From: an uncultured Bacteroidota bacterium
GTDB lineage: Bacteria; Bacteroidota; Bacteroidia; 2-12-FULL-35-15
DNA length: 35,847 nucleotides
Reading direction: 5' to 3'
Assembly (NCBI GenBank): GCA_903926385.1
Contig: CAIYIS010000034.1
Location: 1 to 35,847, forward strand
Part shown: piece after piece, positions 22,136 to 35,847 of the stretch
Layout: the number at the start of each line of letters is the position of its first letter
Numbering within the stretch: the stretch's first letter is position 1
Translations under genes and position numbers: made by a program
Notes under the pieces: model-generated
What the model saw: only the letters and a program-made list of their open reading frames with translations
Told to the model about the DNA's origin: nothing
Databases searched by the model: none

Positions 22136-22593
22136 CGAATAGGCAATTTGGCAGTAGGCAATTTAAATGAGATGTGAGTATTGAGATATGAGATGTGAGA
22201 ATAATGCTGATTCATCTTTTTCTCAAATCTCAAATCTAATATCTCAAATCTAATTAGGGCGAGCAAGTGCCCTCTTCGTCATCACCTGTCCTCCTGCCCA
22301 CACGCGGTATCTTTTTTTTCTCGTCACCATCAGCTTTCTCGTCACCCTGAGCCTGTCGAAGGGCCATTAACTTCACTTCCCATCGAACCAAAAAAAAGGA
22401 TACTTCGCGCGGGTCAGGCGCAGTTAGTCAGCGCATAGCTTTTCATTACCTTTAAGTAAGCACGAAAAAAACTCCGAATAAGGAGGAATGGAGGTTAAAA
22501 ATTGTTTTGGTTTTTGTTTAATAATGGTGTTGCGTTACAAACGCTATTCTCAACCGCCCTCGTTACAAACGAGGGCGAGGGGGGGGTGATGGT
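22136..22593. other. repeat-rich intergenic region
   Basis: No gene is supported in these 458 bp. It holds direct and inverted short repeats built on GAGATGTGAG and TCTCAAATCT (22168-22254), the segment CACCCTGAGCCTGTCGAAGG (22343-22362), which I have seen as a scattered motif in many genomes, a GCAGTTAGTCAGCGCAT box (22420-22436), a small CTCC/GGAG hairpin near 22473, and the 69-bp two-hairpin repeat listed separately. Confidence 0.6.
22516..22584. repeat. 69-bp two-hairpin dispersed repeat, copy 1
   Basis: The copy matches 33856-33924 in 65 of 69 positions. Hairpin 1 is GCGT/ACGC around TACAA; hairpin 2 is GCCCTCGT (22556-22563) with ACGAGGGC (22569-22576), followed by a G-run. It ends 9 bp from the stop codon of the minus-strand TonB-domain gene. 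A GCAGTTAGTMAGCGCAT box lies upstream of both copies. Confidence 0.85.
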
Positions 22594-23526
22594 CTAATGG
22601 AAATCGATTGGAAGTGTTAGGTTAAACTTAACGTTTTGTCCATTATACTTCCCTGGTTCCCACTTAGGCATAAGTTGAATTACTCTAACTGCTTCTATGT
22701 CGCAAGCATTACAACCTTTTAAACCTTTTAAAACCTTTACATTTGTTATGCTTCCATCTTTTTCAACTGTGAATGAAATGTGTGCTGTGCCATTAGTATT
22801 TTTCCTTTTTTCGTTTTTAGGGTAAACCAGATTTTCTTGAATAAATCTATTCATTGCTTTATCTCCCCCCGGAAAGGAAGGTCTTCCTTCGTTTGATTTG
22901 TTTTCTGAAAAATCTGTTGAATTTTTTTCAGCGTCAGTCTTTAAGATTTCTAAATGTTCGCTATATGAAATTTCCTTTCCCTTCTTGTCAAAATATTGCT
23001 CACTTTCTGTAACTGCTTTTTGTTTGTATTTAGAAGTGGAATTTTTTAATTCCTCTGGGGTTAAGTCAACAATTTTAATTTTTGATAAACGTTCTAATTC
23101 ACCTGAATTATAATAACCATAAACATCAGTTCGCCCGTTTGCTAAATATGCTTGCTTCATTGTCAAAGAGCCAGTCATATTATAATAAAATGAAGTGTCA
23201 GAGGCTTCTCCATTTTTGTATTTGGATTTAAGATAGACTGTGCCTTTGCTATTATAATAAATTAAATTGCCATCTAAATATCCATTCTTTGCTTCTGAGG
23301 TTCTTAAAACAGTGTTGTCAGGATAGTAAACGGTATCATTTTTAATAAACTTTCCTAAATCAGATTTTATGTTTTTTTTCGCTAACAAATATATAGTTGT
23401 ACTATCTGATGAAATTGCTTTTGATTGCAGATCTAGTTTATTTGTTTCTTCTGAACTATTTGTTTGTCCAAAAGAAAACAATGAAAATGTTATTAAAATC
23501 GTTGTCAGATTAATTGCTTTATTCAT
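22594..23526 (-). CDS. periplasmic TonB C-terminal domain protein with MORN-like repeats
   Basis: With the start at ATG 23526 the protein has 310 residues and a signal peptide (1-20, NKAINLTTILITFSLFSFGQ). The middle (about 60-165) consists of short tyrosine-rich repeats such as GNLIYYNSKGTVYLKSKYKNG, like the MORN/YwqK antitoxin type. The C-terminus is a TonB fold: FPGGDKAMNRFIQENLVYP, TAHISFTVEKDGSITNVKVLKG, WEPGKYNGQNV and a final LPIDFH. It lacks a membrane anchor plus Pro-rich spacer, so it is unlikely to be the energising TonB itself and may be a periplasmic binding protein or an orphan TonB fold. A further 23 codons upstream (MKTPAKEK...) are encoded partly by a REP hairpin and are rejected. 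Confidence 0.75.
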   Translation of the reverse strand: MNKAINLTTILITFSLFSFGQTNSSEETNKLDLQSKAISSDSTTIYLLAKKNIKSDLGKFIKNDTVYYPDNTVLRTSEAKNGYLDGNLIYYNSKGTVYLKSKYKNGEASDTSFYYNMTGSLTMKQAYLANGRTDVYGYYNSGELERLSKIKIVDLTPEELKNSTSKYKQKAVTESEQYFDKKGKEISYSEHLEILKTDAEKNSTDFSENKSNEGRPSFPGGDKAMNRFIQENLVYPKNEKRKNTNGTAHISFTVEKDGSITNVKVLKGLKGCNACDIEAVRVIQLMPKWEPGKYNGQNVKFNLTLPIDFH

Positions 23527-23578
23527 AACGTATTTTTTGCTGAGTGCGTTTCCTAAAATGGCATATATCGTTTTCTCC

Positions 23579-23608
23579 TTTGCAGGTGTTTTCACCTGTA
23601 GACCGAAA
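23579..23608. repeat. REP-like hairpin, distant copy
   Basis: CAGGTG (23583-23588), loop TTTT, CACCTG (23593-23598), then TAGACCGAAA (23599-23608). It matches the longer copy at 35377-35417 next to the transposase gene, including CTTTGCAGGTG before it, but lacks the eight bases CAAACAAG between stem and tail. The tetranucleotide GTAG touches the foot of the hairpin. Confidence 0.75.
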
Positions 23609-23692
23609 CCGTTTAAATTTTCTCCTACAAATATACTACTAATAATATATGTGTATAAAGAAAATCTTATTCCAAATCGTCACATTCTGGCC

Positions 23693-23799: not shown

Positions 23800-24162
23800 C
23801 ATCGCGAGTGCGTTTCATACCATCGCTACCGCTTGCAGCACCATCGCAAGTCAATTTCATACCATCGCTACCGCTTACAGCACCATCGCAAGTCAATTTC
23901 ACACCATCGCAACCGCTTGCAGCACCATCGCAAGTCAATTTCATATCATCGCGAGTGAATAACACTCCTTCGGGCGTGCGTTTCATTCATTCGCGACCGC
24001 TTACAGCACCATCGCAAGTCAATTTCACACCATCGCGAACGCTTACAGCACCATCGCAAGTCAATTTCATACCATCGCGAATCAATTTCATACCATCGCG
24101 AGCGCCTACATCGCATTCGCGAGTCAATTTCGCTCAAACGGTAGCCCTTGCAGACCCATCGC
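23800..24162. repeat. minisatellite of 18 units of 21 bp
   Basis: The hexamer CATCGC or a degenerate form occurs every 21 bp without a single indel: 23800, 23821, 23842, 23863, 23884, 23905, 23926, 23947, degenerate at 23968 and 23989, then 24010, 24031, 24052, 24073, 24094, degenerate at 24115 and 24136, and 24157. Two unit types mostly alternate, ACCATCGCAAGTCAATTTC and ACCATCGCTACCGCTTACAG, giving a 42-bp higher order. The centre and the right end are more diverged. Confidence 0.9.
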
Positions 24163-24250
24163 ATCCCCTTACATCCCCCGTCTTTCCTCATTTCTTCATT
24201 TTCTAACCCATATTCTCCCTTTTCCTCCCCTAAAGCCCTTTTCTCCTCCT

Positions 24251-33855: not shown

Positions 33856-33924
33856 GTTTAATAATGATGTGGCGTTACAAACGCCATTCTCAACCGCCCT
33901 CGTAACAAACGAGGGCGAGGGGGG
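33856..33924. repeat. 69-bp two-hairpin dispersed repeat, copy 2
   Basis: This copy has the full hairpin 1 (GGCGT, loop TACAA, ACGCC) and hairpin 2 GCCCTCGT (33896-33903) with ACGAGGGC (33909-33916). Its upstream GCAGTTAGTAAGCGCAT box (33820-33836) is 19 bp away, against 79 bp in copy 1. It lies downstream of the 225-residue gene, past that gene's terminator. Confidence 0.85.
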
Positions 33925-34667: not shown

Positions 34668-35436
34668 TTTACTTTTTTTTGATTAGTAAATAAATTAATT
34701 ATTTTACAAATTTAATTATGAAATAAATTTCACAAAAATGATTTTTATCAATTTTCAAAAATTAATTTCCCCTGCTTTTTCGATATGCCCTTCATGGACA
34801 TAAATTACCGCTATGGGCAATGTGGTTAATTATTGCCTTGTTTTTTGCCTTTTTATATATACGTAAATCATTGACACGCCTCCTATATTATTAAATATCA
34901 ACATTTAAAAAACGAACAAAATTTCTCACTTTACTTTCTTACACACAAGGAAAGTGTTTCTAAGCACTAGAAATTCATTTTTTAGTACTAAGAAAGCATT
35001 TCTACCCACTACCCTACCCCTGGGGCCCTCTATACCACCTTTGCTAACCCTGATAAAAGTGTTTGTTAGTACTAGAGGAGGTATGCAAATTGTTAAAATA
35101 ACGATTTAGACTAATTTGACCATGTTTTCTATTAATATGGATTGGTTCTTTAGTTATATAAATTGAATCTTTAGTAATTTAAAACCAAACCTTAGTACTA
35201 AGGAAAAGATTCGTATTACTCTGCTTTGCTTCCATATTAATCTGAAAGGTTTCGGTGGTAGGTTGGGAGAATTCTGTCTTAAGTAAGATTGAACCCATCT
35301 TAAGCCCAAACCAATCTTTAATGTGCTAGATTGGTTACTTTAAATAGTGTTTAGGGGTAGGGCAAAAGTATCGATGCCTTTGCAGGTGTTTTTTCACCTG
35401 CAAACAAGTAGACCGAAATATTCATACATTTGTTAT
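34668..35436. other. structured intergenic region upstream of the RAYT gene
   Basis: No gene is supported in 769 bp. The first 270 bp are A+T rich and hold the promoter of the 225-residue gene. From 34951 on there are TTAGTACTAA-type palindromes (34957-34973 imperfect, 34982-34991, 35066-35075, 35190-35203), inverted pairs GAATCTTT/AAAGATTC (35165-35172 and 35205-35212) and AACCAATCT/AGATTGGTT (35309-35317 and 35328-35336), and a distant inverted pair CCCTACCCCT (35012-35021) with AGGGGTAGGG (35353-35362). Confidence 0.6.
35377..35417. repeat. REP-like hairpin adjacent to the RAYT gene
   Basis: TTTGCAGGTG (35379-35388) and CACCTGCAAA (35395-35404) form a perfect 10-bp stem with a T6 loop, followed by CAAGTAGACCGAAA. 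The transposase ATG is 20 bp beyond. The GTAG tetranucleotide (35407-35410) is the type of signal recognised beside REP hairpins by RAYT proteins in enterobacteria. Confidence 0.8.
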
Positions 35437-35847
35437 ATGGTTTCTTTCAGAAAAACATCTAGTGTTTATTTTTTTACAGCCACAAACCTTAATTGGATTA
35501 AAGTGCTTGAGGAGGATAAGCACAAAACAATTTTAATAAATAGTTTGAATTTTTTGAGTGAAAACAAAAGAGTAAGAGTGTTAGGCTTTGTGATAATGCC
35601 AAACCATATACACGTAATTTGGCAAATACTCGAACCAAATATAAATAGTGATGTTCAAAGAGATTTCTTAAAATATACTTCACAGCAAATTAAATGGAAT
35701 TTGGTAAATACTGATTCTCCTTTATTGGATGATATACGGGTAAATGCGAAGGACAGGCGGTATCAAGTATGGGAACGAAATCCGCTGTGGTTTGAACTTG
35801 ATAACACAGCTACGTTTTTGCAAAAACTAAATTATATTCACAATAAT
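35437..35847 (+). CDS. REP-associated tyrosine transposase (Y1/IS200-like, RAYT), partial at window edge
   Basis: The frame is open from ATG 35437 to the last base, giving 137 residues with no stop, so the 3' end is missing. MPNHIHVIWQ (54-63) contains the HUH-type His57 and His59 that coordinate the metal in single-stranded-DNA transposases of the Y1 class. DVQRDFLKYTSQQIKW (72-87) resembles the helix of the Bacteroidetes branch of the family, and Tyr80 in it could be the nucleophile. YQVWERNPLWFEL and KLNYIHNN further match that branch. Such single-copy genes act on REP palindromes rather than mobilising themselves. The REP-like hairpin 20 bp upstream supports this. Confidence 0.88.
   Translation, partial: MVSFRKTSSVYFFTATNLNWIKVLEEDKHKTILINSLNFLSENKRVRVLGFVIMPNHIHVIWQILEPNINSDVQRDFLKYTSQQIKWNLVNTDSPLLDDIRVNAKDRRYQVWERNPLWFELDNTATFLQKLNYIHNN

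Follow-up and report, generated by a model that had tools for sequence, protein, structure and literature searches.

The DNA analysed here, a stretch of 35,847 nucleotides (the window), is the entire contig C34, one of 85 contigs that make up the 4.27-Mb genome of an uncultured Bacteroidota bacterium (the own genome, G000). At its right edge lies the 5' part (137 codons) of a gene for a RAYT, a Y1 transposase of the HUH type (35437..35847, + strand), the frame of which continues to the contig end. The gene is preceded by a hairpin, TTTGCAGGTG-TTTTTT-CACCTGCAAA (35379..35404, + strand), recognised by pattern, fold and genome search and composed of a perfect 10-bp stem (TTTGCAGGTG/CACCTGCAAA) and a 6-nt loop of T residues. 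The calculated DNA fold has an energy of −10.1 kcal/mol (z −4.6), and the ATG at 35437 follows 32 nt past the hairpin. The perfect hairpin and its position directly before a Y1/HUH transposase, both given in a preliminary description made from the sequence alone, were thus confirmed. At the outer (5') foot of the stem stand the letters GCC (35376..35378, + strand), which comparison of the RAYT copies marks as the tag of this left-end hairpin: the sequence common to both RAYT copies of the own genome starts at GATGCC, 3 nt outside GCC.

Copies of the hairpin were counted throughout the genome, as the preliminary description had proposed, using the reversed version of each pattern as control and leaving the tag out of the core search (at most 2 mismatches). 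The window holds one match to the core pattern against 0.05 expected. The whole genome yielded 30 matches (23 at 1 mismatch or fewer) against 0 for the reversed control, and a few of the 2-mismatch matches are probably due to chance. A pattern with free stem letters gave 28 genome matches, with 0 in the control. Coding sequence was rejected as an explanation of the hairpin; an open frame (FAGEKTPAKA) is seen in some copies and by eye is not general.

The distribution of hairpins relative to the transposase was determined in 36 genomes of the genus, including the own genome, with one genome per species. Proteins of at least 66% identity were counted as orthologues, so that genomes with remoter RAYTs (e.g. 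G006, 48%) were scored as being without one. All 10 genomes with an orthologue contain at least 8 hairpins, compared to 1 of the 26 others with at least 5 (Fisher p = 4e-8, uncorrected for kinship); 19 of these 26 have no hairpin at all. Two of the ten orthologues are broken (G026, G029). With about 30 copies at home, this strong co-occurrence and hairpins on both sides of the gene in relatives, the pairing of the RAYT with its own hairpin, as proposed in the preliminary description, stands; copies are neither absent from the genome nor unrelated to the gene, the two outcomes it had named as speaking against the pairing. That the RAYT and the hairpins belong together is well supported by these genome comparisons.

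The constant parts of the hairpin were assessed at 27 loci of RAYT homologues, a survey that includes the same-genome pairs L066/L067 and L074/L143 and stops short of 12 remoter loci (L086, L089-L099). An upstream hairpin was found within 350 nt at 19 of the 27 loci. All 19 carry an apical GTG, 16 have GCC at the outer foot and none has GGC at the inner foot; GTAG or GTGG was not found at any of the 19 upstream feet. Downstream hairpins, scored at 15 loci, have the apical GTG in 14 cases, GGC at the outer foot in 9 and GCC at the inner foot in 1. In the own genome, 20 of the 23 core matches with at most 1 mismatch have GCC directly before the 5' arm. In this clade, GCC-hairpin, gene and hairpin-GGC thus follow each other, the two ends being mirror images. 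GCC at the outer foot and the GTG/CAC tip are the constant parts, and the middle of the stem varies with the transposase. It reads GCAGGTG or GTTGGTG in the own genus, GGTCGGTG in G189, GTGAGTG in G159, and GTGTCAGGTG in Adhaeribacter and a metagenome-assembled genome. Among 8 genomes searched, GGTCGGTG hairpins were confined to G189 (5 copies, all bracketing two RAYT matches, one of these partial), and GTGAGTG hairpins were found 7 times in G159, 5 of them around a RAYT, and once in G000. With these features (GCC, variable stem, GTG-loop-CAC), repeats of a class that is missed by GTAG-based searches can be found by a simple rule.

The preliminary description had placed the tag, with its GTAG, 3' of the stem, in the tail CAAGTAGACCGAAA (35405..35418, + strand). 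Genome counts and the neighbouring copies do not bear this out, and the conserved tag is the GCC 5' of the stem. As a shared tag, GTAGACCGAAA was rejected: the genome contains it 3 times, and its reversed control 4 times. At the third GTAGACCGAAA locus (L035) no hairpin of the core was found. Beside the second RAYT copy, on contig C1, the corresponding stretch reads ATTTTACTGAAA and GTAGACCGAAA is absent; TAGACCGAAATAT is nevertheless present behind an additional hairpin, which lies another 49 nt upstream of that copy. The TAGACCGAAATAT-type tail may be a local stretch of the left end in the own genome.

The truncated RAYT of the window has the HUH motif NHIH, and the contig stops within YIHNN. 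The NCBIfam model REP_Tyr_transpos (NF047646, cut-off 80) gave 68.5 bits for the window's truncated copy and 81.6 for a full-length orthologue. Two proteins tried against Pfam at E 0.001 gave no match; a genome search with Pfam Y1_Tnp matched C81 and C1 and missed the window copy. The structure model of the full-length orthologue (pLDDT 91.8) has the Escherichia coli TnpAREP (4er8) as its best fold match (Z 14.2, 2.8 Å, 136 residues), with IS608 and ISDra2 (Z at most 12.5) and Thg1-like proteins below it in the list. The same entry was the sole match in a sequence search of the PDB (E 0.068). The columns of NHIH and YIHNNP are conserved in an alignment of 12 proteins. By-eye comparison of the orthologues (177 aa, NHIH, YIHNNP, YSSA; records named Bacteroidetes/Bacteroidia) with a published table indicates that the protein fits TnpAY1 subclass 2.6 of Quentin et al. 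2018, which is reportedly the same as RAYT group 5 of Bertels et al. 2017, in most of the published marks, WQ excepted. W-E is present in 12 of the 12 aligned proteins (W-E-R in the clade), so the WQ motif of the subclass is not matched; the remoter homologues L085, L087 and L088 carry W-Q.

In the available part of its description, subclass 2.6 has 63 members from Bacteroidetes of about 179 aa, with NH[LIV]H, WQ, YIH[QN]NP and SS motifs, and a 21-aa insertion between helix C and strand 4 (PMC6006769). The distance between HUH and tyrosine is 76 residues here and 56 in 4er8, a difference consistent in size with such an insertion. The same source gives W94, Q95, E100, H101 and R104 for the GTAG-reading region of the E. 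coli protein and describes that region as not conserved in subclass 2.6 (PMC6006769). At equal spacing from the tyrosine (21 residues), these positions map to W112, E113, W118, F119 and D122, which suggests that, of the E. coli residues in contact with GTAG, only the tryptophan is kept. Such a loss of GTAG-reading residues would fit a different tag.

C34 and C1 each end in a 5' half of the gene (protein 96% identical), and C5 and C36 each begin with the 3' half of a copy; the contig of the window probably ends inside the transposase because the gene is repeated. The 5' halves are 96.4% identical over 475 bp up to GATGCC, and their flanks diverge 3 nt outside GCC. The 3' halves are 98.8% identical over 260 bp to ...CAAGGGCGAAAAT, after which the flanks differ; this point lies 7 nt past a GGC that belongs to another hairpin, a half one situated about 50 nt outside the right hairpin of the RAYT. 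Duplicates in G013 (89% identical) have their left edge at most 6 nt from the tag, and those in G014 (77%) their right edge at most 2 nt from it. The two RAYT loci of G189 share 75.5% identity over 462 bp, although one of them contains no more than a partial RAYT match, and two copies in G142 did not align. No single duplicate pair shows both edges for this RAYT type, and the edges in G000 come from different contig pairs. In these alignments, edges of duplicated units in G000, G013 and G014 lie at or near the tags, and the units look as if they had moved; they may still be mobile. A candidate empty site inside a gene on C1 was rejected, as its flanks did not clearly form one gene. A distant third RAYT of the genome, on C81, has 27% identity. 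It occupies 256-789 of L036 and is followed by GGTAAGTacaACTTACC; its 3' end recurs directly behind leader hairpins (L012, L013, L024, L259), as a composite repeat.

Double hairpins of 94 bp with the tags facing outward occur in G014 (L194, L203 and the variant L202), and a doublet of about 92 bp is present in the own genome (C1:40909-41000). Those in G014 contain GAAAAAAATCGGGATAT, at a distance from the right hairpin that equals the one seen at the RAYT unit's right end. They look like shortened units. Elsewhere in G014 (L211, C22:57465-57617), hairpins GTTGGTG-GTGATAA-CACCAAC-AACGGC are arranged in tandem, 33 or 66 nt apart.

A second copy of the hairpin in the window, given at 23579-23608 in the preliminary description, was found to be a real, shorter hairpin (23582..23598, by pattern and fold) with a 6-7 bp stem and a TTTT loop. 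It is part of a class I copy (23574..23649, − strand) comprising a promoter-like box, a leader and a decayed hairpin with stem CAGGTG/CACCTG and GGA in place of GGC. This copy scored 77.2 bits with a leader-type model built from 11 copies, of which it is one. The 11 aligned sequences share TAnnTTTG, which we take to be the −7 promoter consensus of Bacteroidota, about 20 nt, and GGTTTGCAGGTG-loop-CACCTGCAAAGGC, then usually a gene. In the leader alignment the −7-like box of the window copy is TATATTTG (23628..23635, − strand). The gene behind the hairpin (22594..23526, − strand) starts 55 nt past it and encodes 310 aa with a signal-peptide-like N-terminus and what is presumably a TonB-C-like C-terminus. 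On the gene's strand the foot of the 5' arm reads TCTAC instead of TTTGC, which gives GTAGACCGAAA on the opposite strand. At this site, the tail that the two hairpins seemed to share is a substituted stem foot plus a leader for which the family consensus is different, and the eight bases that had been described as missing, with variable spacing as the conclusion, do not represent a deletion. The alignment places the site in a promoter-like leader family, of which it is a decayed copy.

Applied to 37 genomes, the leader-type model gave 37 matches in the own genome (11 being its building sequences), 16 in G013, 14 in G014, 4 in G011 and a single one in each of three further genomes. At the right end of the RAYT units and in solo copies the box begins 48 nt before GCAGGTG/GTTGGTG in G000 and G014 and 49 nt before it in G013, and it overlaps the RAYT stop codon in G000 and G013; the right end may have promoter activity. 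Among 28 hairpins that were collected, two of them probably due to chance, 15 have TAnnTTTG no more than 75 nt upstream, either at 32-37 nt or at 48 nt. By a crude rule, with background frames chosen differently from the genes and gene starts partly set by eye, a signal-peptide-like start is seen in 17 of 24 genes located downstream, compared to 14 of 67 background frames; upon exclusion of the LVPNPSFE family the count is 10 of 17. Five further frames, namely the minisatellite-like ones at L003 (two) and L008 and those at L021 and L052, were left out of this count, as were frameless hairpins. The link of the leader to secreted-protein genes is suggestive only. At L155 and L156, RAYT right ends run in frame within the last codons of apparent type IX secretion-signal domains (a label that we assume), and QNLVPNPSFE genes lie behind these right ends. 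Minisatellite-like arrays occur near several hairpins (L037 at ~570-870, L008 after 500, and the window at ~23800-24200).

Overall, we consider it quite likely that a small mobile unit has its left end in the feature at the right edge of the window; the unit would consist of GCC and hairpin, a RAYT of the subclass 2.6 type, and a mirror hairpin with GGC. The transposase, with its HUH motif and one tyrosine, would most likely recognise the single-stranded hairpin via the GTG/CAC tip, the stem middle and GCC. By analogy with IS608 and TnpAREP, the hairpin would be held as a single strand, the tag read and the strand cut by the tyrosine nearby; cutting and joining would thus take place at or next to the tag, where classical REPs have GTAG. 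Binding, cleavage site and single-strand intermediate are assigned here on the basis of that analogy. In the guide model that was tested for the REPs of Marinomonas, the cut site is paired with guide bases (PMC8266576); under this model, CC would select a GG site. Acting on its own ends, the enzyme would duplicate the whole unit in the manner of an insertion sequence (IS); acting on other ends, it would spread solo hairpins and the REPIN-like doubles of about 94 bp that keep the right subterminal sequence of the unit. More tentatively, the subclass 2.6 RAYTs of Bacteroidota may not be domesticated and may still be insertion sequences with mirror-image, GCC-tagged hairpin ends. Given an outward promoter at the right end, copies that were inserted or shortened would then have turned into promoter-plus-leader modules for secreted-protein genes of the own genome.

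Several observations weigh against the mobile unit. G004 and G011 have 15 and 4 hairpins, respectively, with no RAYT match at E 1e-10; genus-mates are not independent, and the co-occurrence statistic ignores phylogeny; and some of the counted copies adjoin the RAYT itself, as do most copies of G019 and of G027. At eight of the 27 homologue loci there is no hairpin in the 350 nt upstream, and GGC is missing from 6 of the 15 downstream hairpins. At the 12 remoter loci the hairpins, where found, are without GCC and, save for that of L086, without the GTG tip. Contig breaks leave the joining of the RAYT halves ambiguous and cut off the right edge in G013, the duplicates in G091 end away from tags and the other edges in G014 differ. 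An empty site was not found with the one genome available per species. Neighbouring hairpins within 200 nt in G014 are outward in 5 cases, tandem in 14 and inward in none; most copies are solo or tandem and not REPIN-like.

The duplicates could alternatively have arisen by recombination between dispersed hairpins, in a classical REPtron with a fixed, domesticated RAYT and hairpins that alone move. The hairpins far outnumber the RAYT genes in G014 and G000, and the roughly 4% difference between the 5' halves at home gives no sign of a very recent duplication there. The position of duplicate edges at or near tags in three genomes (G000, G013 and G014) and the location of all five same-stem hairpins of G189 at two RAYT loci speak against this possibility, to which we assign a clearly smaller chance than to the mobile unit. 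It is rather improbable that the home hairpins are mainly regulatory 5'-leader modules, a promoter plus an mRNA stem-loop, that were duplicated with or before secreted-protein genes and to which the RAYT is only secondarily linked. The leader-model matches at home, the box at 15 of 28 hairpins and the excess of signal-peptide-like starts would all follow from it; in G014, however, the box accompanies 7 of 73 hairpins, which lie in all gene contexts, tag and hairpin track the RAYT across genera, and the box is also present in the RAYT unit's own right end. Short stems and A/T-rich loops are common in AT-rich genomes, and the hairpins might then be ordinary intrinsic terminators or chance palindromes. 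This is refuted by the copy number, with near-identical stems and 0 control matches, and by the one-sided tag; moreover, by eye the hairpins often lie upstream of genes with no run of T after them, and the chance of this explanation is negligible.

Other hairpins were observed beside RAYT-type genes. The window contains two near-identical 23-bp palindromes CGCCCTCGTTACAAACGAGGGCG (22555-22577 and 33895-33917; 0 expected), which resemble hairpins flanking other RAYT-type genes of Bacteroidia (L089, L092) and probably represent another family of RAYT hairpins. Hairpins such as GGTCGGGATT-tgc-AATCCCGACC lie on both sides of the RAYT-like genes L092 and L099 and upstream of L094. If these three belong to subclass 2.3, they contrast with the lack of REPs reported for it, in the part of the source available, by the published search (PMC6006769). 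Another RAYT-type gene, in G114, lies in a 683-bp unit that is present twice (L150 on C8 and L151 on C26, 94% identical); its ends are the hairpins CCGCAGGATT/AATCCTGCGG, and the flanks of the two copies differ on both sides.

In the open literature, the supplement to PMC6006769 with its possible list of hairpins aside, no description was found of the GCC tag, the tip rule, the duplicated units or the leader family. Hairpins without GTAG beside subclass 2.6 genes are already known: as far as the source is available, such genes lie between atypical hairpins that lack GT[AG]G, are weaker in structure and have further copies in the genome (PMC6006769). The present system is like that subclass in its Bacteroidetes hosts, protein length, NH[LIV]H, YIH[QN]NP and SS motifs, and dispersed non-GTAG hairpins. 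It differs in having W-E-R for WQ, many perfect stems of 9-10 bp where the published ones are weaker, and duplicated whole units, which the available part of the subclass description does not mention. Apparently new are the GCC tag with the tip rule, the doubles of about 94 bp, the duplicated units edged at or near the tags, and the box 48-49 nt inside the right end. CGTC-tagged REPs are likewise short hairpins tagged at one end and occur in Bacteroidetes too; their tag differs, and no associated transposase is reported for them in the part of the source available (PMC3733652), whereas one is present here.

RAYTs are usually presented as domesticated and tied to GTAG, and this lineage offers a natural test both of how the cut site is selected by tag and stem and of the point at which a transposase ceases to move itself. 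IS200/IS605 elements (IS608, ISDra2) also have a single Y1 transposase gene between hairpins and are duplicated as units; here the ends are inverted copies, unlike the arrangement of the IS608 ends, and the fold is nearer to TnpAREP (Z 14.2 versus at most 12.5). With the GTAG REP/RAYT systems of E. coli, Stenotrophomonas and Marinomonas (groups 2 and 3), the present one shares the short unpaired 5' tag, inverted pairs and the HUH-Y1 fold. The likeness to enterobacteria drawn in the preliminary description thus holds in outline, whereas the RAYT subclass is another one, the tag is GCC, the gene lies in duplicated whole units and, of the GTAG contacts, the tryptophan alone appears to be kept.
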